The position numbers and the translations under genes were made by a program. From Isoetes taiwanensis (lineage: Eukaryota; Streptophyta; Lycopodiopsida; Isoetales; Isoetaceae), in NCBI GenBank assembly GCA_021234155.1, contig JAJEKV010000223.1, positions 124,001-188,000 on the forward strand: a stretch of DNA of 64,000 nucleotides. Reading direction: 5' to 3'. A model generated the notes under the pieces. It had not been told where the DNA came from, ran no database searches, and worked only from the letters and a program-made list of their open reading frames with translations. Shown in pieces: positions 1,200-49,100 of this stretch (positions are counted from its first letter, which is position 1; each line of letters begins with the position of its first letter).

Positions 1200-1230
1200 C
1201 GTCTAATAGACCTGATGGTCTCACCAGACG
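1200..1230 (+). other. LINE 3'-terminal nested hairpin
   Basis: An outer stem CGTCT/AGACG (1200-1204 with 1226-1230) encloses an inner stem AGACC/GGTCT (1208-1212 with 1217-1221) with a TGAT loop. The position, just before the CTTCA tail, matches the other LINE ends in this window. A role as the RT recognition structure is inferred. Confidence 0.75.
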
Positions 1231-1235
1231 AAATA

Positions 1236-1305
1236 ATACACTTCACTTCACTTCACTTCACTTCACTTCTCTCTCTCTCTCTCTCTTTCTCTCTTCTCTC
1301 CCTCT

Positions 1306-1354
<49 letters not shown>
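1236..1354 (+). repeat. (CTTCA)n LINE tail followed by (TC)n microsatellite
   Basis: About five CTTCA units (1241-1265) form the retrotransposon tail and pass directly into about 85 bp of TC dinucleotide repeat with a few interruptions. The tail appears to have seeded the microsatellite. Confidence 0.9.
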
Positions 1355-1357
<3 letters not shown>

Positions 1358-1361
1358 GTGA

Positions 1362-1780
1362 TCAGATAATCACTCCCCTGAATGCCACCATATCAGAGCA
1401 TAAGGTGTGACATAGCAAATATTGTGTTCTTGGTCCTTCATCTTCTTGCTTAGAAATATGAATGCACCATATCAAGAGCTTTTGATAAATTATAATACCA
1501 TAAAGCCCTGGATCATTGTTATAGCAACCGTTAGCAGCAAATTGAACCACTGACATTAGAATATTGTTGCCAAAATAGAATAGAATATGATAGATTTTTT
1601 AACATCCATGAAAACCAAGAGGTCATGGGACCCATACAATAGGTTAGTACAATCATTACTACTAGGATTAAAAAACTCTTGCTTTGAAAGGTTTTCGAAA
1701 AACCTTTGCAGTAATGATGATACTAATCAATCAGGAAAAAATAAGTAAACCATGGTGACTACTAAGGGCTCAATAATTGA
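1362..1780. other. No recognisable gene
   Basis: AT-rich sequence between the (TC)n tract and the next LINE relic. The short open frames here show no family motif. Confidence 0.5.
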
Positions 1781-2600
1781 AGACGCTTATTTAGAACCTC
1801 AAGTATGTATAATGCCAAGTCATGCACAGATGGTGCTCTGAGAAGTTATGGGAGCATGGAATGGAATGGTAAGATCAAATAACGATTCCTGACCATCTTA
1901 AAATCAGGACATATTAGAAGAGTATGGCTTTTATCTTCAATAACATGTAACTCGCAACATGCATATAATCTCGCTTCTCGTGGCAATTGCAGCCGCTCCC
2001 ATCTATCTATCTCAATCCTTAGCTTGTGGGACCCTATGCGAATTGATGCAATAGCTACAAGCTTTTTCATGGACAAGGAAGCAAGCAAATAAGCTTGTGG
2101 TCCTGGTGCAAAAGTGGGATTTATATGTGCATGATAATGACCAGTTTGAACTTGGACTAAAGAAACTGCATCCTATATCTTTTGAAAAAAATGACCATTG
2201 AGATATTGTTGCAAAAGCCTAAGATCAGAACTAGCAAACACCGTGTAGTTTTCCCGTTGCACAAACTAGCAGGCAAACCATGCATTACATTGATCTTTCC
2301 AATATCGTTCCAAACGCCGATGAGACTCAGCAATGGCAAGCGCGAGAAGAGGGTACCTATCATCATCCATGTGATGCACCTAGCTGATATGGCAGAATAT
2401 TGAAGAGGCCAAAACCTATCTCTTGTAAAAGAATAACATAGGGCACCGTAGTTTTGACTCCTAGGCTGTAAGTGAGAAAAGACTTTTGCAACCATTTCGA
2501 GCTCTCCAAAGCACATACCAATGGCGGCCCCCTATACTTTAGAACCATACAATAAAACGGGCTCTAATAAAGCCTGAAACAAGTGGGCTGTCCGTGACTG
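1780..2600 (-). mobile_element. Decayed LINE fragment (RT C-terminal region)
   Basis: Minus-strand frames at 2548-2157 and 2088-1846 match the C-terminal part of the LINE at 1-1262 in order: a GPPLVCALESSKWLQKSF / SLGVKTTVPYVILL segment, then an IGSHKLRIEIDRWE segment, then a finger remnant (CCELHVIEDKSHTLLICP) that has kept the E-x-x-H-x4-C spacing. Several stops and shifts separate the pieces. No clear terminal hairpin or tail remains, so the element is older than its neighbours. Confidence 0.75.
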
Positions 2601-2918
2601 ATCATGAAACTCTGCGAGAAAATAATTGCTTCACATTGCATAGAGTGTTCTCCAGCCAACAGTCACATGCTTGGTAATACACTGCTCCCAAAGTGTGTTC
2701 TTACAAAATTATACACCAAGATACTTGTAGCAAAAACTATACTGACAAAATAGGCTGAGAATTATAGACCTTTTAAACATAAGTGCAAAGGCACATTAAG
2801 AATATATATTAGGCTAAAATATAGGCGCACGTAATATAGGCGCATACCGGTAGGCTCTCCTGTTACGATTTTGTAGGCAGGCCGGGGGGCTCATGGCGAA
2901 GGGCCGAAAGGCCAGCGG

Positions 2919-3560
2919 ATGTCTGGAGATGGAGAGGAAGAAATCTTGGAGCACCTTAGAGAATTAAAGGAGGAAATTGCAGTTATGAAATCATTGCTGG
3001 AGGAAACTCTAAAGGAAACCCGAGATGCAGCAGAAAAAACTCGGAAACTGCAGATTAGGGTATGTGAATTGGAAGCCCAACAGGTACGTGATAAAGAGCT
3101 CATCACATAATTGCAAACATAAAATGAAAGAATCACCAAAGCAGGACCTAGCATTCAATCGGCAGAATATGTGGTAGCTAAGTTCTCCACAAATATTGAA
3201 AACAGGGTAACAGATCTATTCAAACAGGGCCAGGACAGAGCATTGGAGCTGGAAGAACGCACAAACCGAGCTATGAATATAAAAGTATCTGGACTTCCAG
3301 AATTGGATGGGGAGAAGCTAACGGAAGTAGTAGATGATTTATTCAAGAATAAAATGTTCTTGAATGATCCAGGGGTTCGCTCATGTTCCAGAGTTGGCAG
3401 AAAATTGGAAGGACGTCATCGGCCAATTATTATAAGATTTTATTCGTAGATGCTAGAGAAAGGGTGATGCATAACAGGGCTAGTCTCAAAGGCCATCAAA
3501 TATGGCTTGATGACGATCTCACCTTGCAACAGCAGCAAGAAAGGCAGAAACTACTTGAAT
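2919..3560 (+). pseudogene. LINE ORF1: coiled coil plus RRM-like RNA-binding protein, broken
   Basis: One frame from ATG 2919 starts with an acidic leucine/glutamate-rich helix (HLRELKEEIAVMKSLLEETL), a probable coiled coil for trimerisation. It is interrupted by TAA at 3108 and 3120, then continues in the same frame from 3123. Next come ELEERTNRAMNIKVSGLPE and SCSRVGRK...RPIIIRF, the pattern of the RRM core of L1-type ORF1 proteins. A shift at about 3443-3449 moves the end (VDARERVM...IWLDDDLTLQQQ) into another frame. Such proteins bind element RNA as a chaperone. The family call rests on pattern only. Broken. Confidence 0.7.
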
Positions 3561-3633
3561 GAAAGCAGACGGGCAGCAGGCTTTTATCAGAAATGGTAAG
3601 GTTGTAATTAAGCAGGCAAACAAATAGGAAGAA

Positions 3634-6600
3634 GAGGCCCTCAAGGTTCTAGTCTGGAACATACATGGTGCAGATGAGAGCAAATTCATTGCCTGTAACA
3701 CGTTTTTTGATAGTTATGATGTGCTACTGCTTACGGAAACCTGGGAATATGATATGTCTCCATTAAAAAATATATCAGGTTTCACCAAAGTGCATTCTAT
3801 TTGGAATGAGAAGGGAAGTTGCCAAAGAGGATGGGGAGGAATAGCTTGTTATTCAAGGACAAGGATAGAAGAACACATTGAAATTGTCAAGACATGTCCA
3901 TATAAACAGTATTTATGGGTACATGTAAAAGGTGGCAGACCTTTGTATATTGCAGTAGTTTATTTTGCTCCACTTGATCCAGTGCCATCGCCGGTGTATG
4001 CACAGGGAGGTTTGGATGCCCATGACCCTTTCTTACATCTAGCAAGAGATATATTAGACTATCAAGCGAGCGGGGAAGTCTATGTGGTTGGCGATTTTAA
4101 TGCCAGGGTAGGAAATCAGCAAGCACCAATTTTTACCGAGGACTGTGCGGATCTCTTGCTAAGGGAAGCAGATGCAATAGACTATGGGCTTAATAGAGAG
4201 TCGCCGGACACAAATCAGAATCAAATGGGTAACTATTTACTACAAGCATGTGGTGCTTTGGACATGATTATCATGAATGGTCTTAAAAAATTTCCATATA
4301 CATGTAAATATACCTGCTTTCAACCCAATGGGAATTCTATGGTCGATTTTGTTATAGGCAGCCCAAAAAGTAATCAGCTTAAAGAGTTTCGGATCTTAGA
4401 CCGATTACCAGAGTCGGATCATGCTCCATTGGAGATGTCTTTGGGCGCAACCTTTAGGATAAAAAAAAAAGAGAAAGATTCATGTGCCGCGGCTGAAATT
4501 GTGGTATAATCAAGCACACGAGTATGCAAGCAAATTAGATGAATTGCTGGAGCAGCAGGAATGGCTGTCGGATCTTGGCAAATTTAACATGCTTTTGGTT
4601 ACTAGCATGCTTGCAGCAGCATCAGAAGTCTTTGGTTACACGAAACCAAGAAAATATGTCTCAAAAAGGTGGTTTGACAAGGATTGTGTTCAGGCGAGGG
4701 CATCATTTCGGCAAGCAGAGGATAAGGTGGCAGCTCGTAAAGCGTATTGGAGAGTGTTGAAGAAGAAAAAATCAGAATGGCAACAGTTGCATCACAAGCA
4801 AATGGAAGAGTATGTGGCGGATGAACCGAGAAAATTTTGGAGACTTACCAAAAGCCCAGCTATGGGTGGTGATTTTGCAGAAAATGAACTTATAGATCTA
4901 GTGAAGAGCTTATATATGATCGATGGACGTAGGCTCATGGCAAAACCAACAACAAATGACAGTGATTTATTCACTACAGATGATGTCCAAAATGCTCTCA
5001 GTGACATGAAGAATGGAAAAGCACCTGATAATTTAGGGGTTGTGGCTGAGCTTTGCAAATGGGGCAGCGAAACACTACATAAAAAGCTGGCTGAAGTATG
5101 CAATCTTGTATTGAAATGTGGATCATTCCCAGATGAATGGTGTATCAGCCGCGTTGTGCCCATTTATAAGAGTGGAGATAGAAATCTGGTTGCGAACTAT
5201 CGTACTGTATTGGTTGGGAATACACTATCTAAACTGTTTGCAAGCATGATTGAAGAAAAACTTTCACATTGGGCAGATCATGCAAATGTCAGGGCCGAAT
5301 GCCAGGCTGGTTTCCGGTCAGGGCACTCGACAGTGGACCATCTTGTCACATTATGGGTGATTCTAGAAAGCGCTAAGGGGCGAGGCAACAAGGTTTATTG
5401 TGCTTTTATGGATTTGTCAAAGGCATTTGACAGAGTTCATAGGGACAAATTACAAGCTAGACTGGAGGCTCTGTCTGTACCAGTGGAGCTGCGGGAAGCA
5501 GTGGCATGTCTCTATCAGCGTGTTCTTGTTGAGCTTTCATTCCCTTTTGATCAGGGCCAAAAAATACAAAGTACAGTTGGCGTTAAACGAGGTTGTCCCT
5601 GTTCACCGCTATTATTTGGGTTGTTTATCGGTGAGGTGGAGAAATGGATGCGGGAAAATGGAGGAACAGGAGTGGACCTCTGTGGGTATGTAGTGCAATT
5701 GTTGCTTTTTGCTGATGACATTGTGTTAGTCTCCCGGACTGAAAATGGTCTCCAAATACACCTAGATGTACTGCATGAGTTCTGTGAGACGCATGACATG
5801 TCAGTAAACAGGGGTAAATCAAAGATTATGGTGTTCGGAACTGTTGACAAGCCTGATTTCTCAATTGGAGGTGAGAGTTTGGATATGGTTCCAGCCTACA
5901 AATACCTGGGAATTGAAGTTAGTAGTAATTACAAGTGGTCTTTGGCTGCAAAAAAACGAGCTACTGTGCGGGGCTTAGGCATTATACGGAATGATCAAAA
6001 TATGTAAGGAGAACAACTTTGAAAATTGGAGCTTGAGGCGGTTGCTCTTGAGTTGTGGTAAAACCCGTCATCTTGTATGGATGTCGCATGGGCTCCCCGG
6101 ATTATCACGAAGCAGATTGGGCGCCGTATTGAAAAGGTACAAAACAATTTCTTCTTGCGAATTAGGTGTTAAAGCCCGCCCTTTATAAAATGCTCCCTGG
6201 CTGAAACGGATTTTGTTCCATTGAGTTGGAAGCACTTAGTGAAACACTTGCACTATCTTACCGGGGTAGTCGCTCTTGAACTGGACCGCTTACGCGATCA
6301 TGCGCTAAAAATGTCACAGGTGAAAGGGAATGGCTGGTATTCTCAGATCTTGAAATGGGCAGAACATTGGGATATTAAGGCATTCACCTGGCCAGAGAAA
6401 CTAGAAGATATTCAGGCATTCGTCCAGTTGAAAATGGTGCATAAGTTTTGGCAGACAGATGATATAAAGACGGAAGTAAAAGCACAATTTTATGTGAGCG
6501 AGGTGAACACGTTGGGAACATACTGTACTCAAGCATACTTGGAATCTGGTCTGGATAGGAAGTCAAGGCAGCTAATCTCACAACTAAGATTATCCTCACA

Positions 6601-6910
6601 TCATCTTGCTATTGAAGTCGGTAGATGGCATAATATCCCCCAATCTGATCGATTATGCCCCTGTTGTTTGGCATCTCCAAAGGTTGAAAGTGAGTCTCAT
6701 GCATTTCTAGAATGTCCATCTTATGATCACATTAGGCAGAATTTTGGTATCTTGTGCAATAACTTGCAAGAACTACTATGCATTGATCCACGAGTACTAA
6801 GTGCATATATAAAACATGTATACAAGGAAAGAACGGAGGTGATCAAGCTTTACGAACACATGGAAAATCTGCAAAAACAGGGTGTTTTTAATTTTGATTT
6901 TGATTCTTAA
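3634..6910 (+). pseudogene. LINE ORF2: AP-endonuclease, reverse transcriptase and CCHC finger, frameshifted
   Basis: The endonuclease runs from about 3640 (VLVWNIHGAD) through LTETWEY, GDFNARVG, MVDFVIGS and SDHAPLEMS, the usual metal-binding and catalytic stations. The RT follows at 4484-6007 with PIYKSGDRN, GFRSGHSTVDHL, FMDLSKAFDRVH, GVKRGCPCSPLLFGLF and the catalytic FADDIVLVS. The two parts lie in different frames, and the change coincides with a run of ten A (4461-4470). More shifts occur at about 6000-6220. The last part (6221-6910) carries CPCCLASPKVESESHAFLEC, then a short acidic tail. All domains are recognisable, but there is no single open frame. Confidence 0.88.
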
Positions 6911-6956
6911 AACTGTAGATATGGAATGAGTTATACTAAACCATTGTATCTGTTTT

Positions 6957-6987
6957 GCCATATAGGCCTTGTTGGGTCTCAAATGGC
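6957..6987 (+). other. LINE 3'-terminal nested hairpin, diverged copy
   Basis: Outer stem GCCAT/ATGGC (6957-6961 with 6983-6987); inner stem AGGCC/GGTCT (6964-6968 with 6975-6979), which pairs fully in RNA with one G-U. The bases differ from the GTCT/AGAC stems of other LINE ends but the pairing is kept. It is followed by (TAAAG)n at about 6988-7016. Confidence 0.72.
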
Positions 6988-7426
6988 ATGATTAATAAAG
7001 TAAAGTAAAGTAAAGAAATAGCGAGCCATTTTTATGACTGTACTGCTTGATGACACATGTGAACCTAACCTATTTGAGAGAGAGAGAGAGAGAATGAAGG
7101 CTAATATGAACATAGTTACCGAAAACGAAAACGGAATGAAAACGACAAGTTGAAATTGAAATTGAAAATGAAAACGGCCAAAAAAATGGCAAGTTCTAAA
7201 AAAATATATATATACACATCTGTACACTAACTCATCATATTAATATGGCGGACTTAATACAATATCATCTGAAATATGCTTGTCCAAAATAGCATATTTG
7301 CTAGTTAACCAACTCATATGATAAATTCCTTATACTTAGAACAACAAACTTTAAAGAACATGACATAACGTGAAACTAAATGATAACATGACATCAAAAG
7401 TTCATAATGTTCAAGGTTAGAGAGTG

Positions 7427-9999
7427 CTAGTAACGCATGGAATACGAATTCGTGGCAGAATCCCTGTAACGAATATTTGGATTTGAAGAACGAATGTAAT
7501 TCGGCGAGACGTAACAAGTTGCATCCGTATCTTCCTCATCTTCATAGTCACTATCATTCTTGTCACCATCACCTTCTTCTAAAACAATCTCATTCTCATT
7601 GCCAAGAGACAATCCCATGCCATCCACCTCTTGCACGAGTACTTGCTCATCTACCTCTTGCTCTTCCCCATCATCATCATTCCATTCCTGTGGTTTTGGA
7701 AGAGATGTTTGCAAAGCCAATATAAGGCTCTCTTCTCACTTGTCTATGAGATGGAATCAACTTCAAATTTGCACTTACAAATACCAAATCCGATGTTCTT
7801 GATGGAAGAAGTCTATTCCTTTTCTTGCTTGCCAAATGTGAGAAGACACTAAAAAGCCTCTCAAGTGGAGAGGAGGCCGCTCCTTGGCTAAGAATGGGAA
7901 TCGCCTTTGTTTGCAATTCCGGTATCTCCCCTCCATATTCCTCCCACCAAAGCGCGGATGCAAATTTGAAGCGAGCCCTTGCGCATCCGGGGTTCCAAAA
8001 CTCCCCTCTTTCTTCGTATAGATTGCATATTACTCTCTTATTTTCAATCTCTTATCAGCATCATCAACCATCCTGTTAAGCACGTCATTAAAGTGCCTCG
8101 AGATAGTGGGATCCGTCCATTGTTTTTGTCCTTGGAACTCATGATCCAAGTAAAATGCAGCAGCCTGAATTGGGGACTCATATTTATTCCATCTTTCATT
8201 GCACATTATCACCAACTCCGCTGCTTTTGTTGCATCTTTCTCCAATTTCATAATATGTTCATTCATCCTGTCAAGCCCTTCATAAACCTTTCCAAGGCAT
8301 GGATCATTTCCATCAACAAGGTGCAACATCAAAACAATTGGCTCTACAACCTCCACGTGATGTTTAACCTTCTTCCAAAATGCATCATAAAAACAATAGC
8401 ATTACATGCCCTTCAAGCAGCTGAGCGTCCAGGTGGACCCTTGCAAAAGACATCATCAACAAACAATGACCTCAACATCCAATGCAAATCATGCAATCTT
8501 TCAAGCATGATGAAATTGTAACCAAATCTAGTTTCACAATATTTTAGCAAAGTCTTACCGTTATGATTTGCAAGTGTGAATGTGTGGCCATTCACAAATG
8601 TAACCAAAGACTTTCCTTTTTGCACCAAATCTGCAACTTTAGGTAGGCTGCCAATATCTTTGAGAAAGTTATTGAGGCAATGTGCAATGCATGGGCAAAA
8701 GAAGACATGAGGAAACTCTGCCTCAATAATACATCCAGCTGCACGATTGGCATTCTCTCCATCACATACACTTTGCACAACATTTTGTGCATCCACATAT
8801 GTAATGCTTTCTTTCCATGTAGCTGCTAAATTTGAGGCCCCTTTTCCTGAAGCAGATATGTCATGAGACATGAGGAAATATACTTTGCCTCTACAATAGG
8901 CAATTGAACCTTCAATATGACGCCCTTTCTTATCAGTCCATCCATCAAATATGAGGGTGACTCCAAAATCAGCCCATTGGCTTCTAATATCAGACAAAAG
9001 AAGACATGAGGAAACTCTGCCTCAATAATACGTCCAGCTGCACGATTGGCATTCTCTCCATCACATACACTTTGCACAACATTTTGTGCATCCACATATG
9101 TAATGCTTTCTTTCCATATAGCTGCTAAATTTGAGGCCCCTTTTCCTGAAGCAGATATGTCATGAGACATGAGGAAATATGCTTTGCCTCTACAATAGGC
9201 AATTGAACCTTCAATATGACGCCCTTTCTTATCAGTCCATCCATCAAATATGAGGGTGACTCCAAAATCAGCCCATTGGCTTCTAATATCAGACAAAAGT
9301 TCATGCATAGTTTGCTTTTCCCTCTCTAAGAATGTTGTGCGATGTCCTCGTATTTAGGTGCCTCATAACCAGGCCCATAACTCGCAATAGCTTGCACCAT
9401 AGCTTGGAAAAAATCTGATCTAGCAACACGAAATGGGATGTGGTCATGATAGAACCATCTAGCAACCTGTCTATCCACTGCCTCTTGTTTTTTTGGATCG
9501 ATTAGCCTCTTTATTTCCTGCTGGCCAAGCTTCTTAGGTTGAAGAAAGCGTCGTAGTCCACTACTAGAAGCGAGTGTGCTTTTCTCCATTGGACTTTCAC
9601 GTCATTCTTGATCATAATGTGTACCTGTATCACGTCTATAAGGTGTATCACGGTGATCATCAATGCCCAAAGTAGCGGCTTCCCTTGCACATTCTTGTGC
9701 TTGCTTCTTAGCGGCTTTCTTCTCATCCAATTGCCTTGCAAATTCTAGTAGTTGGTGTCGCTTCTCATCTGGAATACTTGGACAAACTCAAAGTCTTGTC
9801 TCTCATGAATCAAAAGGCCTCTTACTCTTATCATGGAAGAAATGTGTTGCTCTTTGCAATAAGAACATATCCATTCTCTAGCACCTCCCGGTAGTTTTTG
9901 GCCATTTAACACAATTTCTACCTCTTTCCACCAATCACTAGGATCTGGACCTGTATTGTTACGCTTTCTTTTCCTATTGATGCTCATCATGGTGATCAC
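7427..9999 (-). pseudogene. hAT transposase (BED, DUF659, hAT dimerisation), broken
   Basis: It reads on the minus strand from ATG 9999. First is a BED-like finger (GAREWICSYCKEQ...RVRGLLIHERQ), then LQPKKLGQQEI, and then DUF659 with YGPGYEAP and VTLIFDGWTDKKGRHIEG. A middle domain follows (CIAHCLNNFLKDIGSLP, NHNGKTLLKYCETRFGY). The C-terminal dimerisation domain reads ILSQGAASSPLERLFSVFSHLASKKRNRLLPSRTSDLVFV. An acidic tail ends near 7427. Lesions include a 1-nt loss after the BED finger, TGA near 8413, TAA near 8030 (shared with the right copy) and a 299-bp internal duplication. When intact, such proteins cut and paste their own element. Confidence 0.85.
8701..9298 (-). repeat. 299-bp tandem duplication inside the left hAT transposase
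   Basis: Units 8701-8999 and 9000-9298 are nearly identical and cover the DUF659 segment. The motif CAAAAG occurs at 8696, 8995 and 9294, exactly 299 bp apart, so the breakpoints share 6 bp of microhomology. The right hAT copy has one unit, so the duplication arose after the palindrome formed. Confidence 0.9.
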
Positions 10000-10004
10000 A
10001 ATCT

Positions 10005-10140
10005 ATGGAAATAAGAGAACAAAGAACAAGTGAGCAAAAAAATATATCAAATGAGCAAATAAATAGCTTACTGTTTTTTTGTTACAGTAAAACAAACAAA
10101 GAACAAATAAGGAAAGAAATTTATCAAATGAGCAAAATTT
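10005..10140 (-). repeat. Tandem repeats upstream of left transposase start
   Basis: A TGAGCAAA...ATATATCAAATGAGC unit with an AACAAAGAACAA block occurs about twice. It mirrors the three-unit array at 12222-12425 in the right copy, showing copy-number change between the arms. Confidence 0.7.
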
Positions 10141-11981: not shown

Positions 11982-12221
11982 AAAATGCCACTGCCTCTTC
12001 TCACAAATTCATTTTGGCAAAATTTTGTCCTTAATAATGGATCAGTGGCCAAATATATTCACCCTTTCCTGATCCAATCAAAGCAGGGAACTATGTCTAT
12101 TGGTTACCCTTTTATGAAAGCCCAGTCTGGTTGTATTTCTCAAGTATTTGTGCCTGATTTTTTTGTGTCATTCCAAGGAATAGGGATCAACTGTTCAGTA
12201 ACAGTAAACATTGAGTAAATT

Positions 12222-34100: not shown

Positions 34101-37100
34101 AGGTTTGTTGTGATGCTTTGTTCATCTCAGGCAGATGCAAAATGTTTCTATTATCTTGACATGGTTTGGCAGGTGGCAAGACATATCAAGGGTGGTTGGA
34201 TCCAAAAGGCCGAACAACGTTTCTTCAGCTTTCCAGATTATGAGGAGGACTTAGTTCAAGCCATTAATGTGGCTGGGCCTGAACGTGCATTGCCCCTTTT
34301 AACCATGAGTGGATATCTTCTCACGAGCCTCAATGAATCTTATCAGTCAAGGTATGTGAAGTAGAAGGCATACAAACAAATAGATTTTTTCTATAATACT
34401 CAAGGGCCAAATCCCTTTGAAGGTCTTTTGGATAACTTTTTAAACATTTCAGCTAATAGGTTTATTGTAACTTGTAACACCTGGCCTAGTATTCACCTCC
34501 TAAACAATGTGAGACTTGCAATGGGAGAACTTAAAGTGCCTTCCAAGCTGGAGATTCTGACTGGCTAGCATATTAATCGCGAGGACAAAAAATGCTCATT
34601 ATATACATTTCATTCTTGCTACATTATAAGAGGGAAATACCACTGCCTCTTTAGAGATCCAACAACTTTGCCATAAGGCGTTATGGCCAGAAAATCTGTA
34701 GCAAAAATGAAGGGGCATTCTCAAACGAAAAAAGGATTTAGCCCCAGGCAAGCAGAGATAACCTCATACTAGCCACAACAGGGAGACTATTCAAGCGAGA
34801 ACTCAAAGAGCGAATAATTATATTAATATCTGCAGGAGGCCAAATATTACATCAGATGGTGTACAGTTAGGGCACAATGTAGTCACCTAGAACGTGCACA
34901 AAAAGATAAACTAACTAAACCATGAAAATTTAAGAAACTTAAGAAATCTGTCTTCCCCTTAGCTGCAGGTGCGAAAAAATAGGTCATGCTGCTCTTGTTT
35001 TGTCTCTTAAATGCCTGTTTATGCTTTTTGTTTTTCCTGGCCGCTTTATCTTTCTAGAAAGAAAGAAAGAAAGATTATATTAACGTCTACAAGAGACCGC
35101 TTGGGTCTATGAGACCAAATATACATCAATCATGTCCAGCTAGGGGCGCATTTGCAGCCACCTAGAGATATTGCTTAAAAAAAGAAACAGAAAACTAAAA
35201 CAATGAAATAAGAAATTTTTGTCTTCTTGGCCACGGGCTCAAAGTATAAAGTGACGCCAGACTTGTTTTCTCTTTTGAAGGACTGCTTATGTTTTTCCTT
35301 TACTGTCCACTTTCTTCTTCTACACTTTCATGGTTACTCTTTTGAGATTGGATGGGATGCATGGTTACTCTTTTGAGATTGGATGAGATGGTCCAGGAAG
35401 AGAACCTGACCTCTGTTTATTATCATTATCACCTCCAATGAGAAAGAGAGTGATCAGCCTTTGTGTAGGATCATTTTCATGTCCCACTCTTCCCCCAGCT
35501 TGCTCCTTCAATAGATGTCTTCTATGCACAGTCATTTGGTGAAGGAAAAGAGCTATACATCTCTGGTCCTCATAGGCGATCAGTTTGGAGAGGGAGGTAG
35601 GTTCCTGAAATAGGCAATGGAATCTGCCCTGTATTTCATAATAGACTGGACATGTGAAGATGAAATGTTCCTCAGACTCAATTACATTCAAGTGACACAG
35701 TCTGCAGATCCTCTTCGAGCGCTCCACCTTGGGTCTACTAGCACGACCAGCTTCAATCTCAAGCTGATGAGGTGAGATCCTGAGCCGACCAATAGCTTGT
35801 CTCACTTTATGTGCAAGATGAATATTCAAATATCCTGGTCGCTCGATGAAACCATCTTCATTGAACTCAAGGAAGTGATCTTTGTAAAATTGCATCTTGG
35901 TAGGAAGATCTCTTGGAGTTAACCATGTCTTTGATATGTATAAAATTTCCAAATCGTGCTTATCTCTTTCAAGTCTCTTTTTTGCTCCAGATTTTATCAC
36001 AGTATTAGCTGCAGCCATGTTATGTTGAAAGGGAGGCAGGTTTCCCAAGCCAAATCCTAAAGAGGCAGCCCATTCCGATGCCTTTGCATACCAACATTCC
36101 TGCACTCCCTTTTCAGCCAAATCTTTTGAACTCTTGAGAGCAATCCATGGAAGCCTGCATTGGCCCTGCTGCGAGGACCCGAGTTGGTGCACTTTGTGCA
36201 AAAAGGAGACTAACTGGAATGCTGCGTCCAGTTTCAGCGGAGTGGCTGAAAATTCTGCCAAATTGATTGGATGCGGCACAGATGCTTTGCTCAATCATTT
36301 TCATTCTTTGGCTGTCATGTCCACCCCCCACATCAAAGCCCCGTATAGAGCAGCTGGTCTAACCAAGGTATTGAAAGGATGAAGCTTTGTGGGACATCCT
36401 GAAAATCTGCTTTGAAACATTTCTTTTCTAGGATTGCAAGCGAGGCTTAACCCTTTGTGAGTCTTCCATATGCTGCATCTTCCATGCTAAAGACGGGACC
36501 CTTAAATTGCACCCCTAAGTAGTATAATGAGAGACCACTTCCACTTGTTGATTCATGAAAAAAAAGGGGCTGCGGTGCATGTGAGCACGTGATGTGTTGA
36601 AAACCATCACTTTTGTTTTATCCAAGTTCACTTTAAGCTCTCTTTGAGCGCAAAATTTGTTGAGTGGAGAAGATGATCTGAACAGCAAAACACTATGGAG
36701 AGAAGAGGAGACGCACCAAGTAACAAAGGAGAAGCAGGAAACTTATGTATTACCCTAACTCATAAGGTGTACATATATATATGTGCCACGTCCTCATGTT
36801 GGGTGGCAAATAGGAAAAAGGTAAAGAATGGGGGACCCATGGGCTAATATAAAATGCCCCATGGGGTACAACGTTAAGTTACAACGTTATATATCACATT
36901 ATACTATTCTAACACTCCCCCTTAATGTGATATTCCAGACTCCTCTTTCCTCACGCCAAGAGCCAACCTGAAATCTTCAAACTTGGCTTTCCCTAATGGT
37001 TTTGTGAAAATATCTGCAATCTGATATTCTGACCTGCAGTATTGGATGTCAATTTCTCCATTCTCAACCTTTTCTCGTACAAAATGGTAGGTCGTCTCAA

Positions 37101-40100
37101 TATGCTTAGTTCTGCCATGAAAAACAGGATTGTTTGCAATGCGTATGCTGCTCATATTATCAGTAAAAATGCAAGTGGGTCTGCTGTCGTGAATCCCAAT
37201 TTCTTCCATGAATTTTTGAATCCAAACGGATTCACATGCTGCAATGCTGCAACCTTTATATTCTGCTTCAGCAGTGCTAATTGCAACGGTGCTTTGTCTC
37301 TTACTTTTCCAAGTTACAGCACCATTTCCAATTGAGAATGCATAACCACTTGTGGATCTTCTCGTGTCCACACAACCAGCCATATCAGAGTCTGTGTATC
37401 CAACTACATCAAGCTGACTATTTGATTCATACAAGATACCAAAATCATGTGTTCCCTTGATGTATCTCAGCACTCTCTTAGCAGCAATCCAATGCGTTTG
37501 AGTAGGATTAGCCAAAAATCTACTCAATACTCCTACCGCAAATGATATATCAGGTCTGGTCACAGTGAGATAGTTCAAGCTTCCTACTAATGCCCTGTAG
37601 AGTGTTGCATCGAATGATTTTGCACCTTTCTCATGAGCGGAAAGTTTAATGCCAACCTCCATTGGCGTCGAAGCTGGTTTAGCAGTCTCCATATGGAACT
37701 TCCTTAGTAAATCTGCTGCATACTTCTTCTGACAGATAAAGATTCCATTGGCAGCCTTCTGCACTTCAATGCCCAAGAAGTAGTGTAACTCTCCAAGATT
37801 TGTCATGTCAAAGAACTCTCCAAATTGTTTTATCTCATGCTCAATCAACTTGAGAGAACTGCCCGTGACAATGAGATCATCTACATACACTACGATCAAA
37901 GTAATGTCATCACCATCATGCTTAATATAGAGACTAGAATCTGCACTGCTCCTTACAAAGTTTTTGCTTAACAGGTAACTATCAAGTTTGGAATACCAAG
38001 CCCGAGATGACTGTTTTAGCCCATATAATGCTTTGTTCAGTTTGCAAACAAAATCGTTACCTTCATGCTTGTATCCGGGGGGTTGCTCCAAATAGACCAA
38101 CTCCTTGAGCTCACCGTTCAAGAAGGCGCTTTTCACATCAAGTTGATACAACTTCCATCCAAATTGAGCTGCAAGTTTATATGGATAACCTCACTGTTTC
38201 CATTTTGGCTACCGGAGCATAGGTGTCTAAGTAATCTTCCCTTCTCTTTGAGCAAAACCTTTTGCCACCAGCCTGGCTTTGTGCCTTTGAACAGTTCCAT
38301 CTGCATTATACTTTAGCTTATAGACCCATTTACATCCAATGACGTTTCTATTCTTTGGTCTTGGTACCAATTCCCATGTATTGTTGACTAGTATGGATTT
38401 GTACTCCTCATCCATTCGCGCCTTTCCATTCCTTAGAATGTCTGGCATCTTCAAATGAAATGAGTTCATGAATATTGGCAAAATTGCATTGATGAGCTGC
38501 TGCGCTTTGTTTCGACTCAATACTGCCTTGACTTCTTGTAAATGGCCTTTGTGCCCAAGGTGCCACATGAGTAGTAGGGGCTGATTTTGCATTCAGCTGA
38601 GTTGCATCAGACTTTGCCGTTGGCTTTTCACCAATATCTTCTTTTGCTACTTCCTTAGCAGCTCTCCTTTCATAGGTAAGCACTTTATCGGGCCAAACTC
38701 TTGGTTGACATTGAGGTGTAACAGGCCTGTTTTGATCTGATGCTTCATCTTGCTGCCATTTAAGTGGAAATTCAAATATTTCCTCCTCTTGCTCTTGCTG
38801 ATCAGTGACTGATATTGGACCGGCAGCGTTCTCATCAAACATCACGTCACGTGAGACAATTATTTTCTGCTTAGCAGGATCCCATAATCTGTAGGCCTTA
38901 GCCCTCAAACTATACCCAAGCATGGTGCAAACTCTTGCTTTGTCATCAAATTTCTTCCTGCCATCCTCCTTAAAGACATGCGCATATGCTTTACATCCAA
39001 ATACACGCAAATGATTCACACCTGGCTTTCTTTTGTAATAAACCTCGTGTGGAGTCTTTCCATCTAGAACTCCCGTCCCTGCTCTATTCAGCAAATACAC
39101 TGCAGTGAGTACTGCTTCAGCCCAAAAACGATGCGGCATCTTCCATTGAGCCATTAGGCAATTTGCCATTTCGCAAATTGTCCTATTTATGCCTTTCTAC
39201 TACTCCGTTTTGTTGTGGAGAGCGAGGCGTTGTCAATTGCCTTTTGATCCCATTGTCTTCACAAAATTGTTCAAACTTTGTGGACAAAAATTCTCCTCCA
39301 TTATCAGTCCTTAACGTGAGTATTTTCTACCCTGTTTCAGATTCCACTTCTTCCTTGAAGACTTTGAAATGATAAAAGGCCTCTGATTTTGTTTTCAGAA
39401 AATAAACCCACATTCTTCTTGAGTAATCGTCCACTAACAAGAAGAAATATAAGGATCCACCAATGGATTTTGTTGGCATAAAGCCGCAAAGGTCAGCATG
39501 CACTAATTCCAAAGGTTTTTGCGCTCTATATTCAGATTCTTGAGGAAACGGAACCCTATGCTGTTTTCCAAGAACACAAGGCTCACAAACCTGTTTTTCA
39601 TCATGTATTTGAGGTAAACCATGCACATTTTCTTGCTGGGACAGCGTGCGCAAACTTCCATAACTGATATGGCCATACCTTTTATGCCAAATCTCTGTTT
39701 GGCTGCTGCTACCTGCTACTATATTGGCCTGATTTTGGGCAGGGACAATCTCCATTTTATATAAATTGCCTTCTCTTCTTGCACGAGCAATCACCTTCAT
39801 ATTTCTAATCATCTTCATGAATTCTTCACTTGGCTGAAAAATTATTGCTTCATCTTCATCAAAGAAAACTTTGAAGCCCTTACGAGTAATGCAAGCAACA
39901 GAAAGCAGATTCCTCTTTAAATCCGGTACGAGTTTGACATTTTGAAATGTCACAATTGCGTCTCCTTCTCCTTTCACTCTTACATTTCCATTCCCTTCTA
40001 TTGCTAGTGAGGAATCATCTCCTAAAAGGATTTTATCTCCATCATACTTTGTGAATTTTGAGAAAAGGGATTCATCACCTGTTACATGAGTTGAGCAGCC

Positions 40101-43100
40101 ACTATCCAAACAAGCAACGCACCTATCAGACTTGTATCTTACATGATCGACTTCATCTACGAACATTGCAAAATCTTGTGCAGCCGTAGAGGTTTTCTCC
40201 CTTGAGCTTGAGGTTGACGGTGACCCTTCTTCAAGGTAATGCGACTCCTTCTCAAGTTTCATTTTCAATATACTCCTTTTTAGAGGGCAATCATTTACCA
40301 TATGGCCAACTTCATCACAACAATAGCATTTGATATTTTTGTTGGAGTATGAACTCCAACGTTCGCCTCTCCCTCTACCTCTATTTGTACGGCCTCTTTC
40401 ATGATCTCTTCCTCGTTGAGCTTCTCCTCGTTGAGCCACTCCTCGTTGAGCCTGATAAGATTGAGAATCATTTTTGGGAGTACCTTCTTCTTGGTGTTGG
40501 AAATTTCTCCAATTTCCTCGACCCCTGCTCCCCCTTCTTCTTGATTGGCTGAAATTCCTTCTTGATTGGCTGAAATTAACCTGCTCCGTTTGTTCCAAGA
40601 TTTGTGATCTCAAAACTTTCTGTTGTAGGGCTGCTGCAAGCTCTTCGAAGCTAGGCTCACTCTCCCGTGCTTGAAAAGCATCAAGGAAGTGCTCATATTC
40701 AGGTGCTCCTTGATATATGGCATTTAGGAGCTCGGCCTCTTCAACTTCAACTCCAATAGAAGCCAATTGTGCAGCGATTTCTGTGATCTTCGCAATGAAG
40801 TCACTCACATCTTTACATTCTCTTAACTTTAGACTGTTAAGCTGATTTCTTAACAGCTGCTTCCTTGTATGATTCTTGGTCTCATAGATTTGCTGAAATC
40901 TGCGCCAAGCTTCACTAGCACTTTTCACTCCAAGTATGTGCCTTTGCATGGAATCATCCACTGCAAGTTTGATGAGCAGCAGAGCCTTTTTGTTCAACTC
41001 CTCCCATTTGTCATCTTCATTTTGGTCTTCACCAGCTACTACATCCCAAACTCCAGCAAGATCAAGTGCCAAAGTCATCTTCTCCTTCCAATAGAGTAGT
41101 TCTTGCCTTTAAGCAAGAACTTTTCATTCATGAACACCTTTTCCAGGCTGTCCATTATAAAAAAACACAAGCCTCTTCTAATCAAAGCCACAAATCTGCA
41201 AACCCCTACTCTATCTTCAACATGCAAGGCAATATGCAAGCTGCTGCAAGAAATCTTTCAGATTTTGCACTCAAGGGCTGCTTTTAGCTTGGTTAATGCT
41301 GCATGCAACTCTCCATAACAGAAGAATGCTTAAGAATGCTTCTCTCTAGGCTCAAACAGAAGTTAGGGTTAAAATCTGCTCTGTTTTTCACAAGGCAGAA
41401 AAACCTTCCCAAAATACTTCCTCTCCTGCACAGAATGAAGCACCCAAGGATGAAACACCGCTCTGATACCAAATGTTGAGTGGAGAAGATGATCTGAACA
41501 GCAAAACACTATGGAGAGAAGAGGAGACGCACCAAGTAACAAAGGAGAAGCAGGAAACTTATGTATTACCCTAACTCATAAGGTGTACATATATATATGT
41601 GCCACGTCCTCATGTTGGGTGGCAAATAGGGAAAAAGGTAAAGAATGGGGGACCCATGGGCTAATATAAAATGCCCCATGGGGTACAACGTTAAGTTACA
41701 ACGTTATATATCACATTATACTATTCTAACAAAATTTCTCGAGTGCCAATAAATGATGCTGAAGGCCTTCAGGAGAAGAGGATATAAGTACCACCTCATC
41801 CGCATATAGAAGGATGGATATGCATTCATCAGCTAAAGCAGATCCATTGCCCCCAAGCGCTGCTACGAAGCGTTCCAGCTTGTCAATGTACAAACCGAAG
41901 AGTGTAGGGGATAAGGGACAGCCCTGTTTAACCCCAATTGTGCTGCTTATGTCATCTAACCCGCCCCCGGGCACTTTAATTCTTCCCAAAACATTTTCAT
42001 AGAGCATCAAAACGGCCCATATGACTTGATGCGACAATCCCAGCTCCGTAAGTTTATGAAATAGGCGGTTCCAAGGGTCTGTATCAAAGGCTTTGCGGAA
42101 ATCCACAAAGCAGCAATAAACTTTTGTTTTCTTTGCTTTAGCTTCCTCAATGATAGATCGCAAGGTAAAGATATGATCTATATAGGCACTCCTCTAGGGA
42201 GACAACTAAATGGTCCAAGTAAAGTACAGGTTTTCCATTTGATTCTTATCACCTCCAATGAGAAGGAAAGTGATTAGCCATTCCTTTCCTTGCCCCATCT
42301 TCCCACTAACATGCTGTTTGGTTATATTTCTTCTATCATCAGTCATTGATGAAGGAATAGAGCTATGCATTTCTGGTCCTCAAACCTAATGAGATTTGTA
42401 TCGTATTTTGGCCTAATCGCCTGCCCAACCTCATTTTCAAGCTGAAACACCATGAACTGACTTATAGCATGCTTTACTTTGTTTGCCAAGTGAATATTCA
42501 AGTACCCTGGCATTGTATGAAACCATTGTCATTGATATCCAAAAAGTAGTTATTAAAGAAAAGAAAAAGGGAGTAACTTGGCAGCTTCCAGAAAAATAAA
42601 AGGATCTGCAATGTAGACATGCAAGCAGTCATGTCGAAAGAGGAAACCTGATAGGAAACAAAGCGATCCAAGTGTGGACATCAGGGCTTAGAGTATACTG
42701 AATGGCAATCTCTGCAGGGTTTTGGAGGTTACTGTCCTTATAGACCTCCCGGGTCTTCATTAGACATTAATAGACCTTTTTTTGTTTAAGTTTGTGGTAG
42801 AAGGCAGAAACGACTATCTAGTACACAGGAATAGAAAGTAGATATACAAGCTAAATTCTTTTTGGGCATTTAGAGAGCATCTAAGACCTTGTTAAGCACC
42901 TCGCTTTGCCATTCTGAAATAACAATAACAATAACAGCGTTTTAATAGTCCAATTGTTTTTACGTTTTTTACATGTACCGGTGGGCATTGCTAGGTATGG
43001 TGCAGTTGTGATGTACGACCAAGAAACAGATGGGAGCCTTGGCTACACAATTCTTCATAATAGTACCTGTCAGCATGCAGCTCCAACATATATCAATGTC

Positions 43101-46100
43101 ATGAACAGTGCAATCCTTCGTCTTGCTACAAAAGATTCTGCTATGTCAATACAAACAAGAAATCATCCACTTCCTGTGACAGAGTCCCAGAAGGCTTTAC
43201 GCCACGTAAGTATTGTGCTCACATTCTTAAGAATTTGGGTTGTCAAAATGTGGTAAGAAGATAAAAGAAAGGTTTATTAACTTCTAAGGAAGAAAGAAAA
43301 GGAAATCTTTATCAATATGAATATGTGCATTACCGTCTCTCACAAGCCTTATTACAAGCTAGCAGAGTGACTCTCTGCTGCTGGCTCCTTAACTAGTCTT
43401 GCACCATTAACTGTTTATGGAAGATGGAATTAAACTTATCCCAAACAAGTGGAAAAAGATATGATCCTATATGGGAGATACATACCTTGATCTTCTCGAG
43501 TGATGATATTTGGAAAAAGCCCATTGCTATGTCTTTTTGCTTGATGACATCCATACGATTTAGGCTGTCAAATGCTCCATCAGAACTATGCTCATCGCAT
43601 GTCCATCACATTGTTATGACGACCATCACACTATGTCTAACTCATCCATGCATTCATGATATCATGACTTGAGGTAGCTTTCGCTTTGTGCTTCGAGAAT
43701 TGCTTCAACTTTGCTAGCTGTTGAAACTAAGTGTGGTGTGCCTTGCCAGCATATCGTATCAGCATGCAAGACTTACAGTTCATATTTTAGCATTAGCCAC
43801 ATTGTCAGAATAGGTTATGCAAAAATTGCTTTCATTTCAATCTAGTAATTTTCTCTCTTTTGCCTGGTTTGAAAAATGATGTTATCAAATGCGCTTCCAG
43901 GATGTCCATACGAAACTCCTTCTATTTGACATGTTGAAGAAACCTATGGATCACGAGTTGATTTATGATGCCCCTCAGCTCAATATCTATCCTCTCCAGA
44001 ATGATCAGGAATAACCCTATGTGCCTCATACTGTCTGAATGGTTAATTAACCTATATGACATGATTTGGAGAAGCTTCATGTCTCAAACCGGGTGTCTTC
44101 TCACCAGTTGGAGATTAAGTCTGGAAGGGCTAAGCAGGTCGGCAGGGAAGACAGAAAATGCTCATTATGTGATATAGGCATGGTAGAATCTGAGCATTTT
44201 ATGGATCGCAAATTTGTAGAGTTGGTCTGCGGAATGATGAATGGCCCCAGCTAGAAAGGCTTCAGATATCTATCCTCTCCAGAATGATCAGGAATAGAAT
44301 AATATAACAGTAACTGTTTCAAATTGCATAAAATATGCAATTTCAGCGGACTTCCTTGGCTGGCGTTTGGCTGGCGTTTGTTTTCTGAAAAGTTGTGGCT
44401 GATCATGGTAAAACATGTCGGTCTTCGAAAAAAGCTTAGCTGCTTAGTTCAATGGGCTTTTTAACAGATAAGGTCCTGCCATTTCAATACAATTTAACAG
44501 CCTGTAATCTGAAACTGTCTAGGGAGCAGGTTAATCAACTTATATGACATGATGATTTAAAGAAGTTTCATGTCTCAAACACCTGGTTAAGTACTTCCAT
44601 AAAGTTGTCTTCCATACAAAGAGATAAGACCAGTTTATCTAGATATTGGCCTTCTGAAAAATGGGAGGATTTCAATGGGTCAACTTAGGCTGTCTTCTAA
44701 CCAGCTGGAGATTGGTACCGGAGGGGCTAAGCAGGTCGGCCAGATGGAAAATGCTCATTATGTGATCTATGAGGAACATCTCATCTTTGTTTGCCATCAT
44801 AAGAGGAAGCCACCATTGCCTCTTTAAATCAGCAACTCTGCAGTAGCTCATGAATAATTATGACCAAAAATGCATATTGCTCATGAATGAGAAAGTGTTC
44901 TTAAAGAGAGAAGTACCAACAGCCCAAAAAGCCCAAGAGAAGCAGAGATGACTTCATTTTTCTCTTCTATTGAAGAGTATGTAATGGAGGACGGCTCTTT
45001 AAAGTGGTCTCCAGATACTAAGGGAGTTGCATTAGCGACTTTTAAGAGGATAAAATGATCACTCAGAACACAAGTAAAGTCTTGACAGAAAACAACATAG
45101 GTCCCTTTTTTTGGATTCGAGATTATTAGGATGGCGAATGGATGTTTTTTAGCAATGAGTTTTTTATTAAATTGCTTGGGCATCCTTGCAGGTTTATAGT
45201 GCTGTATGTTTTCCTTCTAATTTGTAGTAAACATTATAATTGGTGTCAGCTTATTTCTAACTGGATAAGGATTAAGAACAGCAGAATGCGTCTCCATTTT
45301 TCAGTATGCAGATGATGTTTTCTTATATTATCATTGCCATGTCGCTTAAAATACTTTCCAGTCTTCCATGTTCAACTACATGCTTCTGTTTTCTTATTAC
45401 TTGTGCATGCTTGATATATCCCTCCCGTAAAGGCCTAGTCCTAATATTTATTGTGGCTTTTTTGCAGGATTTAAATGCATTTTCGGCAGGTATTATTGTA
45501 AACGTTGCCTACTCTTTCATTCCAGCGTCCTTTGCCGTCCCAATAGTGAAGGTATGTTTGTATCCAATCTAGGTTTTAGATTTTCAGTTTAAGTTTACCT
45601 TTTGTGTCCTCTTCTCTATTCTATCTAATTCCAGGCATTGGTAATCCATAATGCGCTCAGTAAGCCTAACATGCGACCATGAAGATGGCCAGCTTGCATG
45701 TTTAACCTAATGCCTGCTTCAAGCTAAGTGCTCTATCACTCGGCTACTAGTTCTTTTCTGCCAGGTAGGCCCTTTTTACTGGGGCCATGCTGATCATTCA
45801 GAAGGTGTATTTCTTTTTGCCTCAAGTACAATCTCTAATCTCATGGTACTTACGAAGATGTTAAAATCAGTAAGTCAAGGTGACACTGATATTGGTCCTT
45901 GCCTCAAAACAGCCTTTTTCTTGACCGCCTTGCTCTTTGAAAAGGCCATTCAACAGTTGGATACAGGGAAACCAGTAGATTGTGAAGTGCTTCAAGCCGA
46001 AATGATCATGCACGGGACAAAAACTTTAGCACCAATCTCAGTTTCCTTAAGGAAACTGAGGCACCAATAATCACGGGAAACATGGGAAAACATAGGAGAG

Positions 46101-49100
46101 ATAGGAGGCAACTAGATTGATGAGGAAAACTGGTAAAAGATATGTGTAGTGACAATGTTATATAGCCATGCACTAGATGACTTGGAGTTGTCCTGTCATA
46201 TATTGTTGAGGAGTTAGAGTAGGGTTTCATACCTCTCAGCCAGCCTTATAAAAATGGTCTAATTATGTTATCAGACTGTACATAAAGCTGGTGATTCTAT
46301 GGACCTGTCAAATTATCAGCTAATCAGGATTGGCCATGTTATGGCAAAGTTATACGGATCTGCAATAGAGATGATTTTCCATAATTAGAGGGTTTTGAGA
46401 GCTGAGGGCCAGGTTGGGAACATTCTTTCTACTGTTGATCATAATTTCACGATGAGGGCGATTATTGAAGAAGCGAAGGCCAAAAAGAGTAGATTATATT
46501 GCAGAGTAAATTTTCTTGCTGCTTTGATACGGTTCCTCAGAAAAGACTTTCATAGACTCAAAATTTTATGCTTCCCTCATGAGCTGATTTTGGTAGTGTT
46601 GTCACTATATGAGAATGTCGTAGGCTGGGCTCCGTAGGCAACGGCATTGGAGTTAATCAGGGTCTATTTGGTTTTTACATTGATGAGCTGGGGACCTTGG
46701 GTGGAGAAGGCTCCATGCTCGCGGAAGAATGCATCCCAGATTTTCTTTATGCTGATGATATTGTATTGATGTCTTCCTCCCCTCAAGGCCTTAAGAAGTA
46801 CTTTGCCTTAAAGGCATTTTGTAAAGAAAGGGAACTACAAGTTAATCCGCAAAAGACGAAGGCGACGGTGTTTAACCCCTCTTGGAAGCTTCTTTGATGG
46901 GCATCCCATGGAAATTGTATCAGCATTAAACTTGTTAAGGAAACTTGAAAGAATAGGAGAGAGCCAAATGGACAACTGTATTTATGAATAACAAAGGTAA
47001 AATGTTACATTGTAAGGTGTGCCTTATATAGCCATTTTCGTTGACGTGGCACCATGCTGATGTATCTTCATCTGAGCCACTGATATGTTTTGGCAATAGA
47101 GCACCCGTCTGAAGCCTTGTATGAGATGTCCAAGACCTCAGGGTGTTTTTTTTATTGGCTTTTGCAGCCATATCTATGGAGCATCTCAAAAGAAACGTGA
47201 ACTCTCTCCAAAATCTACTGAGTGCATATTTGTTGCTATCCCACAAATCACAAGGGCTGAAAAATGTATGGTCCACAGTCACATCAAGTGTTGAAAATGA
47301 AGAATGGTTCTGGTCATGCCCATTGAGCAGGAGCTCATTATCAACTTTTCCGGCATCTTGGGTCATCAAGTTCTGATTCCTTGCACCTTCTCAAACTACT
47401 CCTAGTCTACTATCTTCTATCAGTGAAATAACTGACAGCCCTTTGCAATATCTTCCTACAGATGCTGTTCCTGTACATTAACTAGCATCTTTGAATGGCA
47501 TCTTCTTCCATTGCTTCTGGTAGAAGATGATGAGTTGGAGGATGCTTCTGCTCCCGGATCTGCGAACGGATGAATGGTCTTGTTTGGAGAAGCTTCAATT
47601 CTCAGAGTGATCTGGAGTAAAGCCTTGATGCCTCACAAAATAATTCTTGCTGAATTTAATGCTAATCCGAGCAGCGGCTTTCCAAACAGTGTCGTTGTTG
47701 ACGAGTCACAATTAAGACAGCTTTCCAAAGAGGCAGGAACATCATATTAATGGAATGGTCATACTGTGGAAGAAAAGAGGCCAAATGCTGATATCAGAGC
47801 ATTTCTTGGAGCAGTTAAGATGGCAATTGAAACATCTTCCTAGAGACTTTTGTTGAATTTGAGTTGATGTTTTCAATCATATGTTAGTGTCCTGGAGCTT
47901 GGAGATCCACAAATTTGTATGTTTTTGGTCTCATAGATCCTATGGGTCTTCTGTAGACGTTAATAAATCCTTTTTTTTTTCTTTCTTTCTTTTCTTCTTT
48001 CTTTCTTAATTTAGGTGACAACAATCACTGTTGTGCTTATAATGCCATGTTCTCTATTCGGCAGGAGCGTGAAGTGAAAATTAAGCATCAGCAGCTCATT
48101 AGTGGGGTTTGTAACCTTGTCTCCTCTCTATTCTATCATGTTTTGATTTCAGGCTCATCATTTATGCATTTGAATAAATGCTTCTCTTATATCAGGTATC
48201 ACTTTTAGCCTATTGGATGTCAAGCTATGTCTGGGATTTTCTGAGCTACTTGATGCCAGCTTCCCTTGCTATTGGATTATTTGCAGTTTTTGGTGGGCAC
48301 TTAACCTAATCATTTTGTTACCTCTATTGGGTTTCTTTCTCAATAGACAAGACTTGGGTGCCTGTAACTATTAAACCAGATTTGGTATATTTGCAGAGTT
48401 GGATGAAATATTCTGAAAATTATGTTGTACATAGGAATTGAAAGGGAGCAATATAATGTTAGAAATGAAAAAATTTATATAGATGTGTACAGATATGATT
48501 TAGGCTAAGGACGTCTGCAAGGTCGCAATCCTGAGTGCTTCTCTTGTGGTTGTCCTTTGTGCCACTTTGAGCCCGTCTTCTTGGATATTAACAAGGAGTG
48601 GGAATTTAATTTAAAGATTAAAATATGGCTGTACTACTTTTCTCTTAGAACTAGAAACATATTCCACTTAATGTGCATAAGCGTCAATAACATAAAAGAA
48701 ATTTATAGGCATGGAGGAGTTTGTCGGAAATGATTCTCTTCTAGCTACAGCAATACTGATGCTTGGATATGGACCTGCTATAGCAGCATCAACCTACTGT
48801 TTGACCTTCTTCTTTACTGACCATTCATTCGCACAGGTCTGTTGCCAAGGTGTACACCTCTGGTTTATTTGTTAAGCTTAGAAGGCAATATGAGTTTAAG
48901 ATTACATTACAATATGAGACATTGTAATTTCTCATCTGTTTGCCCCAATGTACAGCATTTAGCAATCTCCTTCCCCAAAATGTACTTGTTATATGTTTTG
49001 CATTTTGGATATGGGTGGACTGCTATGTTTGCGTGTTTCTGCATGTCTTTGATAGAGTTCATTGGAATAAATATGATGTGCATAGAATTTTGAAGCACGC

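Follow-up and report, generated by a model that had tools for sequence, protein, structure and literature searches.

A nested hairpin with covarying stems at the 3′ ends of LINE retrotransposons in the lycophyte Isoetes taiwanensis

The stretch analysed here (the window) comprises 64,000 nt of the genome of Isoetes taiwanensis (contig JAJEKV010000223.1, positions 124,001 to 188,000) and carries numerous copies of long interspersed nuclear elements (LINEs) with a short hairpin at their 3′ ends. A sequence-only reading had listed eleven copies of this hairpin, and proposed that it is an RNA structure and probably a recognition site common to several LINE subfamilies. Four arms make up the motif, named A (GTCT), B (AGACC), C (GGTCT) and D (AGAC). 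Because A resembles C and B resembles D, two folds are possible: a nested hairpin, with an outer stem A:D and an inner stem B:C, or two tandem hairpins (A:B and C:D).

Hairpin arms are present at all eleven listed stretches, each on the strand proposed, and the three departures pointed out beforehand are as described (CGTCT/AGACG at 1200; GCCAT/ATGGC with an inner G-U pair at 6957; GTTC/GGAC at 20809). The statement that the stems stay is too strong: in seven of the eleven copies each stem has four or more standard pairs in a row, a count that includes 42733 only with a one-base shift (TGTC/GACA), but the rest are degraded. As read directly from the letters, 19415 and 19901 each have an inner-stem mismatch, and the outer stem is cut to three pairs at 26726 (which ends AGAA) and at 32961.

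Two covariance models were used. The first (R1), built from the eleven listed copies with a tandem structure, served only to find copies; it recovers all eleven and a twelfth at 27471-27502(-). The second (R2) is a nested model from 15 sequences, with three matches from a 200-kb genome sample and one locus from outside Isoetes (L001), both described below, in its training set. A further window copy outside that set, 1590-1641(-) (core 1604-1631), was matched by R2 at an expect value (E) of 8.7e-5 and by R1 at only 0.68. Held-out copies recovered by R2 are those at 26712, 20381 and 1590 in the window, and L036, L050, L037:6009 and L041 elsewhere. The hairpin copies of the window and the LINE frames referred to below are as follows.

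1200-1230, plus strand: nested hairpin CGTCT/AGACG and AGACC/GGTCT, tail (CACTT)n from 1239; LINE open reading frame 264-1199 directly upstream; minimum-energy fold nested.
1604-1631, minus strand: further copy, previously unlisted, GTCC/GGAT and GACC/GGTT, tail of ATTCT-like units; R2 E 8.7e-5; LINE C-terminal coding 1768-2491(-) upstream.
3628-6910, plus strand: LINE body of the 6957 copy in separate open frames, endonuclease 3628-4509, reverse transcriptase 4463-6007 and C-terminal part 6173-6910 (Pfam PF03372, PF00078).
6957-6987, plus strand: nested hairpin GCCAT/ATGGC and AGGCC/GGTCT, tail (AAAGT)n; LINE frames 3628-6910 upstream; fold nested.
19415-19445, plus strand: hairpin arms with one inner-stem mismatch; minimum-energy fold not nested; LINE C-terminal coding 18850-19218 upstream.
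19901-19932, plus strand: hairpin arms with one inner-stem mismatch; minimum-energy fold not nested; LINE coding 19506-19829 upstream.
20390-20420, plus strand: nested hairpin GTTT/GGAC and AGACC/GGTCT; no coding match close upstream; matched by R2.
20809-20839, minus strand: nested hairpin CGTTCT/AGGACG and AGAC/GTCT, tail (TTCAT)n; LINE coding 20910-21497(-) upstream.
26726-26757, minus strand: hairpin arms with a decayed outer stem (AGAA); minimum-energy fold not nested.
27471-27502, minus strand: further copy, paired to 26726 by duplication, last arm lost; matched by R1, no R2 match at E<=0.1.
32961-32996, plus strand: hairpin with inner stem AGACCC/GGGTCT and a 3-pair outer stem; tandem fold lower in energy.
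35085-35116, minus strand: nested hairpin GTCT/AGAC and AGACC/GGTCT, tail (CTTT)n; LINE coding 35214-36294(-) upstream; minimum-energy fold nested.
35365-36294, minus strand: LINE C-terminal reading frame, used as the query for fern relatives.
42733-42765, plus strand: nested hairpin TGTC/GACA and AGACC/GGTCT with a one-base shift; no coding match close upstream; minimum-energy fold nested.
47927-47958, plus strand: nested hairpin GTCT/AGAC and AGATCC/GGGTCT; reverse transcriptase coding 46275-46873(+) about 1 kb upstream; minimum-energy fold nested.

The duplication that comprises the 26726 and 27471-27502 copies has a spacing of 745 nt (26729-27773), and its edge falls inside the last arm of the hairpin. 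Three other sites resemble damaged copies: a LINE 3′ remnant at about 34817-34845 (-) (TTTGGCCTCCTGCAGATATTAATATAAT), with arms A and B seemingly lost; a weak match (E 1.5) at 19968-20028 (+) with arms B and C, no arm A and a T-rich tail; and another (E 0.48) at 22215-22292 (-), with GGTCTCACGGAC and an ATTTC tail and with arms A and B altered.

Six of the eleven listed copies (1200, 6957, 19415, 19901, 20809 and 35085) have LINE C-terminal coding on their own strand a short way upstream, while four (20390, 26726, 32961 and 42733) gave no coding match close upstream. The frames at 3628-6007 carry both PF03372 (endonuclease/exonuclease/phosphatase) and PF00078, as in LINEs of the apurinic/apyrimidinic endonuclease (APE) type, and a C-x2-C...H...C motif was seen by eye in the C-terminal part of the same element. 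A phmmer search with the reverse transcriptase gave as best solved chains R2 (here the retroelement of that name), then human LINE-1 ORF2p, a ranking that does not amount to a clade placement. The C-terminal protein has named relatives at 39-49% identity in the ferns Adiantum and Ceratopteris. Between window copies the C-terminal parts are 27-39% identical, except for 19500-19829 and 35365-36294 (76%). The hairpin occurs on LINEs with C-terminal parts as little as 28% identical, so that its presence in several subfamilies, as proposed, holds. The tails differ between copies (CACTT, AAAGT, TTCAT, CTTT, CTATT/ATTCT, CTTCC, GATT) and the hairpin stays; it is the hairpin, not the tail, that the families have in common. 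An Rfam scan of the window found nothing at gathering scores, ARAGORN found no tRNA genes in it, and a crude script for target-site duplications gave nothing firm at the eleven copies.

Core patterns of the hairpin exceed chance in the 1.66 Gb genome, where GGTCTCATAGACC-N3..7-GGTCTC occurs at 263 places, GGGTCCCATAGGCC-N3..5-GGTCTC at 6,017 and GTCTCATAGRCC-N3..6-GGYCTC-N2..5-GGAC at 1,392, with none for the reversed control of each. Letters were examined for the 263-place pattern only, in a sample of 20 (every fifth of its first 100). The third pattern, which joins GTCT to GGAC, stands for one of four arm combinations, and its count is not used as evidence on covariation. Ten of the 20 sampled copies have same-strand LINE coding upstream, and in none does such coding lie on the opposite strand; at L031 the coding ends 725 nt upstream, with another hairpin copy in between. 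Three of the sampled copies (L017, L028 and L035) are 96-98% identical over 529-1261 nt, and their mutual match stops in the tail, 49-52 nt past the first base of the hairpin. The hairpin lies within the terminal ~60 nt and is followed by a short repeat tail, as are the 3′ stem-loops of stringent-type LINEs. For two others (L030 and L034), similarity to the rest of the sample begins only within about 6 nt of the hairpin. Such copies, with little beyond hairpin and tail, fit a model in which target-primed reverse transcription starts at the hairpin-bound protein, and fall short of proof.

It is unlikely, in our view, that the structure serves a step other than recognition by the reverse transcriptase, such as 3′ end formation, RNA stability, export or packaging. 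In many copies the last arm is followed, as judged by eye, by an A-rich, AATAAA-like stretch (TTAATAAA or GATAAAA), which would suit such a role. However, known recognition stem-loops likewise stand directly ahead of tandem-repeat tails (PMC4176376), and the matches of L030 and L034 fit a 3′ priming element; both lower the likelihood of another step without removing it.

Copies beyond the window were also sought in 200 kb of the Isoetes genome, sampled at round coordinates as 20 stretches. R1 gave 13 matches at E<=10 and R2 nine at E<=5, seven of these below 0.01. Three variants were found: GTCC..GGAC with AGGCC..GGTCT (L037:5068, L036 and L050), GTCT..GGAC with AGGCC..GGCCT (L049:9017), and GCCAT..ATGGC with GGACC..GGTCC (L037:8065). 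Same-strand LINE coding lies upstream of L037:5068 (at about 750 nt), L037:8065, L049:9017 and L050:2689. The same is true of L049:1263, for which R1 gave only E 1. Such coding was not found upstream of L037:6019, and L036 and L041 are too close to the edge of their stretch for it to be judged.

A second hairpin, seen by eye, stands about 40 nt upstream of the nested one in the GGGTCCCATAGGCC group and its near kin (L037, L036, L041, L050, L022 and L032). Its arms are AAAACCCT..AGGGTTTT, replaced in L041 by AAAACCCC..GGGGTTTT, a paired change; it is shorter in some copies and is mostly followed by TTAATCC.

The listed copies alone do not settle whether the fold is nested or tandem, and the larger alignment (A6, 53 rows) leans towards nesting, as do counts made directly on it, since R2 carries the nested structure. 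Three permutation tests, (a) to (c), were therefore relied on. Test (a) compared duplex energies of own and swapped partners in fixed-offset windows for 22 of the 53 rows (20,000 permutations), although A6 still supplied the copies themselves and the position at which arm B begins. The nested pairs gave P values of 0.0019 (A:D) and 0.0003 (B:C), and the tandem pairs 0.47 (A:B) and 0.35 (C:D).

Test (b) used 28 distinct arm sets from 52 copies, the window row 52631-52713 having been dropped as misaligned and L049:1263-1290 lying outside A6, and compared them with 500 shuffles. Under nesting 93.2% of cells were paired (88.6% shuffled), 16 cells were doubly changed (5.3 shuffled) and the covariation score was 0.319 (0.214 shuffled), none of these values being reached in 500 shuffles. 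Under the tandem fold the paired fraction was 87.8% against 87.7% shuffled, and the score 0.242 against 0.245 (283/500). Test (c) compared pair counts of own and swapped partners by permutation over 17 lineages, with one row per lineage chosen by judgement, and gave 0.00025 for A:D and 0.0093 for B:C, against 0.71 for A:B and 0.36 for C:D. Many rows of A6, and three of the 17 lineages, come from loci retrieved with a pattern in which arms A, B and C are fixed. The outer stem of 42733 was scored mostly as unpaired, its shift being disallowed.

In all three tests the stems are kept by compensatory change, and changes on both sides are found in several lineages (GTCC/GGAC, GCCA/TGGC, AGGCC/GGCCT, GGACC/GGTCC). 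The covariation check that had been proposed along with the hairpin, made here by permutation in place of R-scape, came out in favour of nesting: the nested pairs covary between families beyond shuffles and swapped partners, and the tandem pairs do not. The earlier observation that the pairing holds while the bases change is borne out by the nested P values once extra families are included, but is thin in the eleven copies alone. A structured RNA is well supported by this covariation.

Several observations weigh against a nested recognition element, and some of them favour two tandem hairpins, or an alternation between tandem and nested. The RNAalifold consensus of the eleven copies is tandem. 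By minimum energy, seven of twelve window copies are nested, two of them (20390 and 20809) through shifted pairs, and five are tandem or otherwise non-nested; among 15 copies folded singly, 11 are nested or nearly so and four are not, and energy z-scores over the 15 lie between -0.55 and -3.43. Of five measures in test (b), two were not unusual under nesting (pairs changed on both sides, 84/500; further pair types, 143/500), tests (b) and (c) relied on a sequence rule to pick arms C and D, and the permutations are not fully phylogeny-aware, kinship being handled only by the choice of lineages. As to the LINE ends, the other ten of the 20 sampled genome matches have no LINE coding within 2.5 kb upstream. 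A related LINE copy, L050:9489-9974(-), ends in an ATAG tail without the hairpin, and LINE fragments in L037, L039, L040, L046, L049, L052 and L053 have no hairpin match nearby, the 3′ side having been read for L049:7133 only.

The likeness of A to C and of B to D leaves a tandem fold open to every copy. Yet its pairs show no covariation in any of the three tests, and the four copies folded from outside the window (L049, two of L037 and the probable Azolla copy L005) are all nested, which makes tandem or alternating hairpins improbable. Conservation of the arms by recent common descent, without a selected structure, would suit arms that hardly vary over much of their length (B most of all) and the close kinship of many copies, but is very improbable given the both-sided changes in several lineages, a covariation score not reached in 500 shuffles, and carrier proteins as little as 28% identical.

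The nested hairpin is thus most likely, with a probability of about three in four, the 3′ recognition element of a stringent-type LINE superfamily, recognised by the element's own reverse transcriptase, and the interpretation offered by the sequence-only reading is supported. In this reading the RNA of these APE-type LINEs folds over its final 50-60 nt into a nested two-stem hairpin: GTCT/AGAC forms the outer stem and AGACC/GGTCT the inner one, the internal loop between them is short (usually CAT), and the inner stem is closed by a loop of 3-6 nt. An A-rich stretch follows, and then the short tandem-repeat tail that differs by family. By analogy with other LINEs, an ORF2-type protein may bind the hairpin on its own RNA and set the tail on the nicked target, where target-primed reverse transcription would start.

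Hairpins of this kind are already known as LINE 3′ recognition stem-loops, and that of Isoetes is a new case. In zebrafish ZfL2 the part of the ORF2 protein that lies between endonuclease and reverse transcriptase mediates its binding to the 3′ stem-loop, and deletion or swap of the stem-loop abolishes transposition (PMC4176376). UnaL2, ZfL2-1 and ZfL2-2 resemble the Isoetes elements in that their 3′ tails combine a stem-loop with a short repeat unit, the stem has an upper and a lower region, and the loops differ by element; their ORF2 binding and need for the stem-loop were established by assay (PMC4176376), whereas the Isoetes hairpin is known from sequence alone.

The plant precedent is a monocot L1 lineage (ME1, monocot 1a), described by Ohshima together with maize and sorghum SINEs (short interspersed nuclear elements), in which a conserved LINE 3′ hairpin with compensatory changes was proposed to act in stringent-type recognition (PMC3747384). 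According to that description it is a hairpin whose stem varies, with UCU conserved in the loop and CGAG as the 3′ flank. Isoetes differs in having two nested stems, a strongly conserved inner arm ATAGACC, a 3′ flank near TTAATA, repeat tails other than poly(A), and a LINE with fern protein relatives. Identity with the monocot hairpin was considered and set aside, the CGAG flank and UCU loop of the published description being absent from the Isoetes hairpin (PMC3747384). Another green-lineage LINE with a conserved 3′ end is L1-1_CR of Chlamydomonas, which has about 80 nt in common with SINEX-3_CR and a poly(A) end, the comparison being by description only (PMC3747384). Among the matches listed in a search of the open-access literature (titles and abstract openings, with subscription papers mostly outside), none described such a hairpin in lycophyte or fern LINEs.

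A partner SINE was also searched for. L022 and L032 share 329 nt (79.6%), of which only about 120 nt are common to LINE 3′ ends; likewise, only the last ~120 nt of the L022/L032/L029 group are in common with LINE ends. ARAGORN found a tRNA gene in none of the ten sampled loci without LINE coding. The hairpin could serve as a marker for finding partner SINEs.

In a search of a genome-contig collection two loci were found, L001 and L002, both in a metagenome-assembled genome (MAG) named uncultured Trichormus sp. (CAKZGI01). The core patterns were absent from a viral contig collection, and relatives of the LINE protein from viral contig and plasmid collections. This cyanobacterial MAG contains eukaryotic LINE contigs (L001, L002 and L005), which probably come from the fern Azolla, the symbiotic host of this cyanobacterium. 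L001 has the hairpin (R1 E 0.0085 over two loci), and contig C88 of the MAG has two held-out copies (R2 E 1.3e-9 and 1.1e-5). Over the whole 5.9 Mb MAG, with 150 of 878 candidates scored, the same two copies have E values of 3.8e-8 and 3.1e-4, and the other two matches at E<=1 are one training copy and one at 0.307. L005:2611 has same-strand LINE coding upstream, and none was found for L005:2065, which reads GTCT..AGAC around AGGTC..GGCCT and folds nested. In L002, itself a LINE, the hairpin was not found in the stretch available 3′ of the coding end.

It is possible, though somewhat less likely than not, that the nested hairpin is a very old recognition element. LINEs in a shared ancestor of lycophytes and ferns may already have had it, or it may have passed between the two groups; paired changes would then have preserved it across many LINE families as the tails and the greater part of the 3′ untranslated region were replaced. 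An ancient element would show how the RNA handle of a LINE and its enzyme co-evolve. Ohshima proposed that in green plants the ancestral LINE of the L1 clade required a specific RNA structure at the 3′ end for recognition, a requirement later relaxed (PMC3747384). With thousands of lycophyte copies and a probable fern contig, the covarying hairpin offers a dense natural mutant collection for the choice of RNA by plant LINE enzymes.

Other repeats were noted in the window. A Copia-like element (by eye) at 36658-41731, flanked by repeats at 36658-36914 and 41474-41731 that are 95-100% alike, interrupts the minus-strand LINE coding 42193-41729 / 36294-35214. Frames at 60407-63299 (+) resemble an ordinary plant L1 (by eye); its 3′ end was not identified, and over these frames and onward to the end of the window R2 gave nothing at E<=0.1. 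Two tandem copies of a 299-nt unit lie at 8696-9299, within a frame that by eye is transposase-like.

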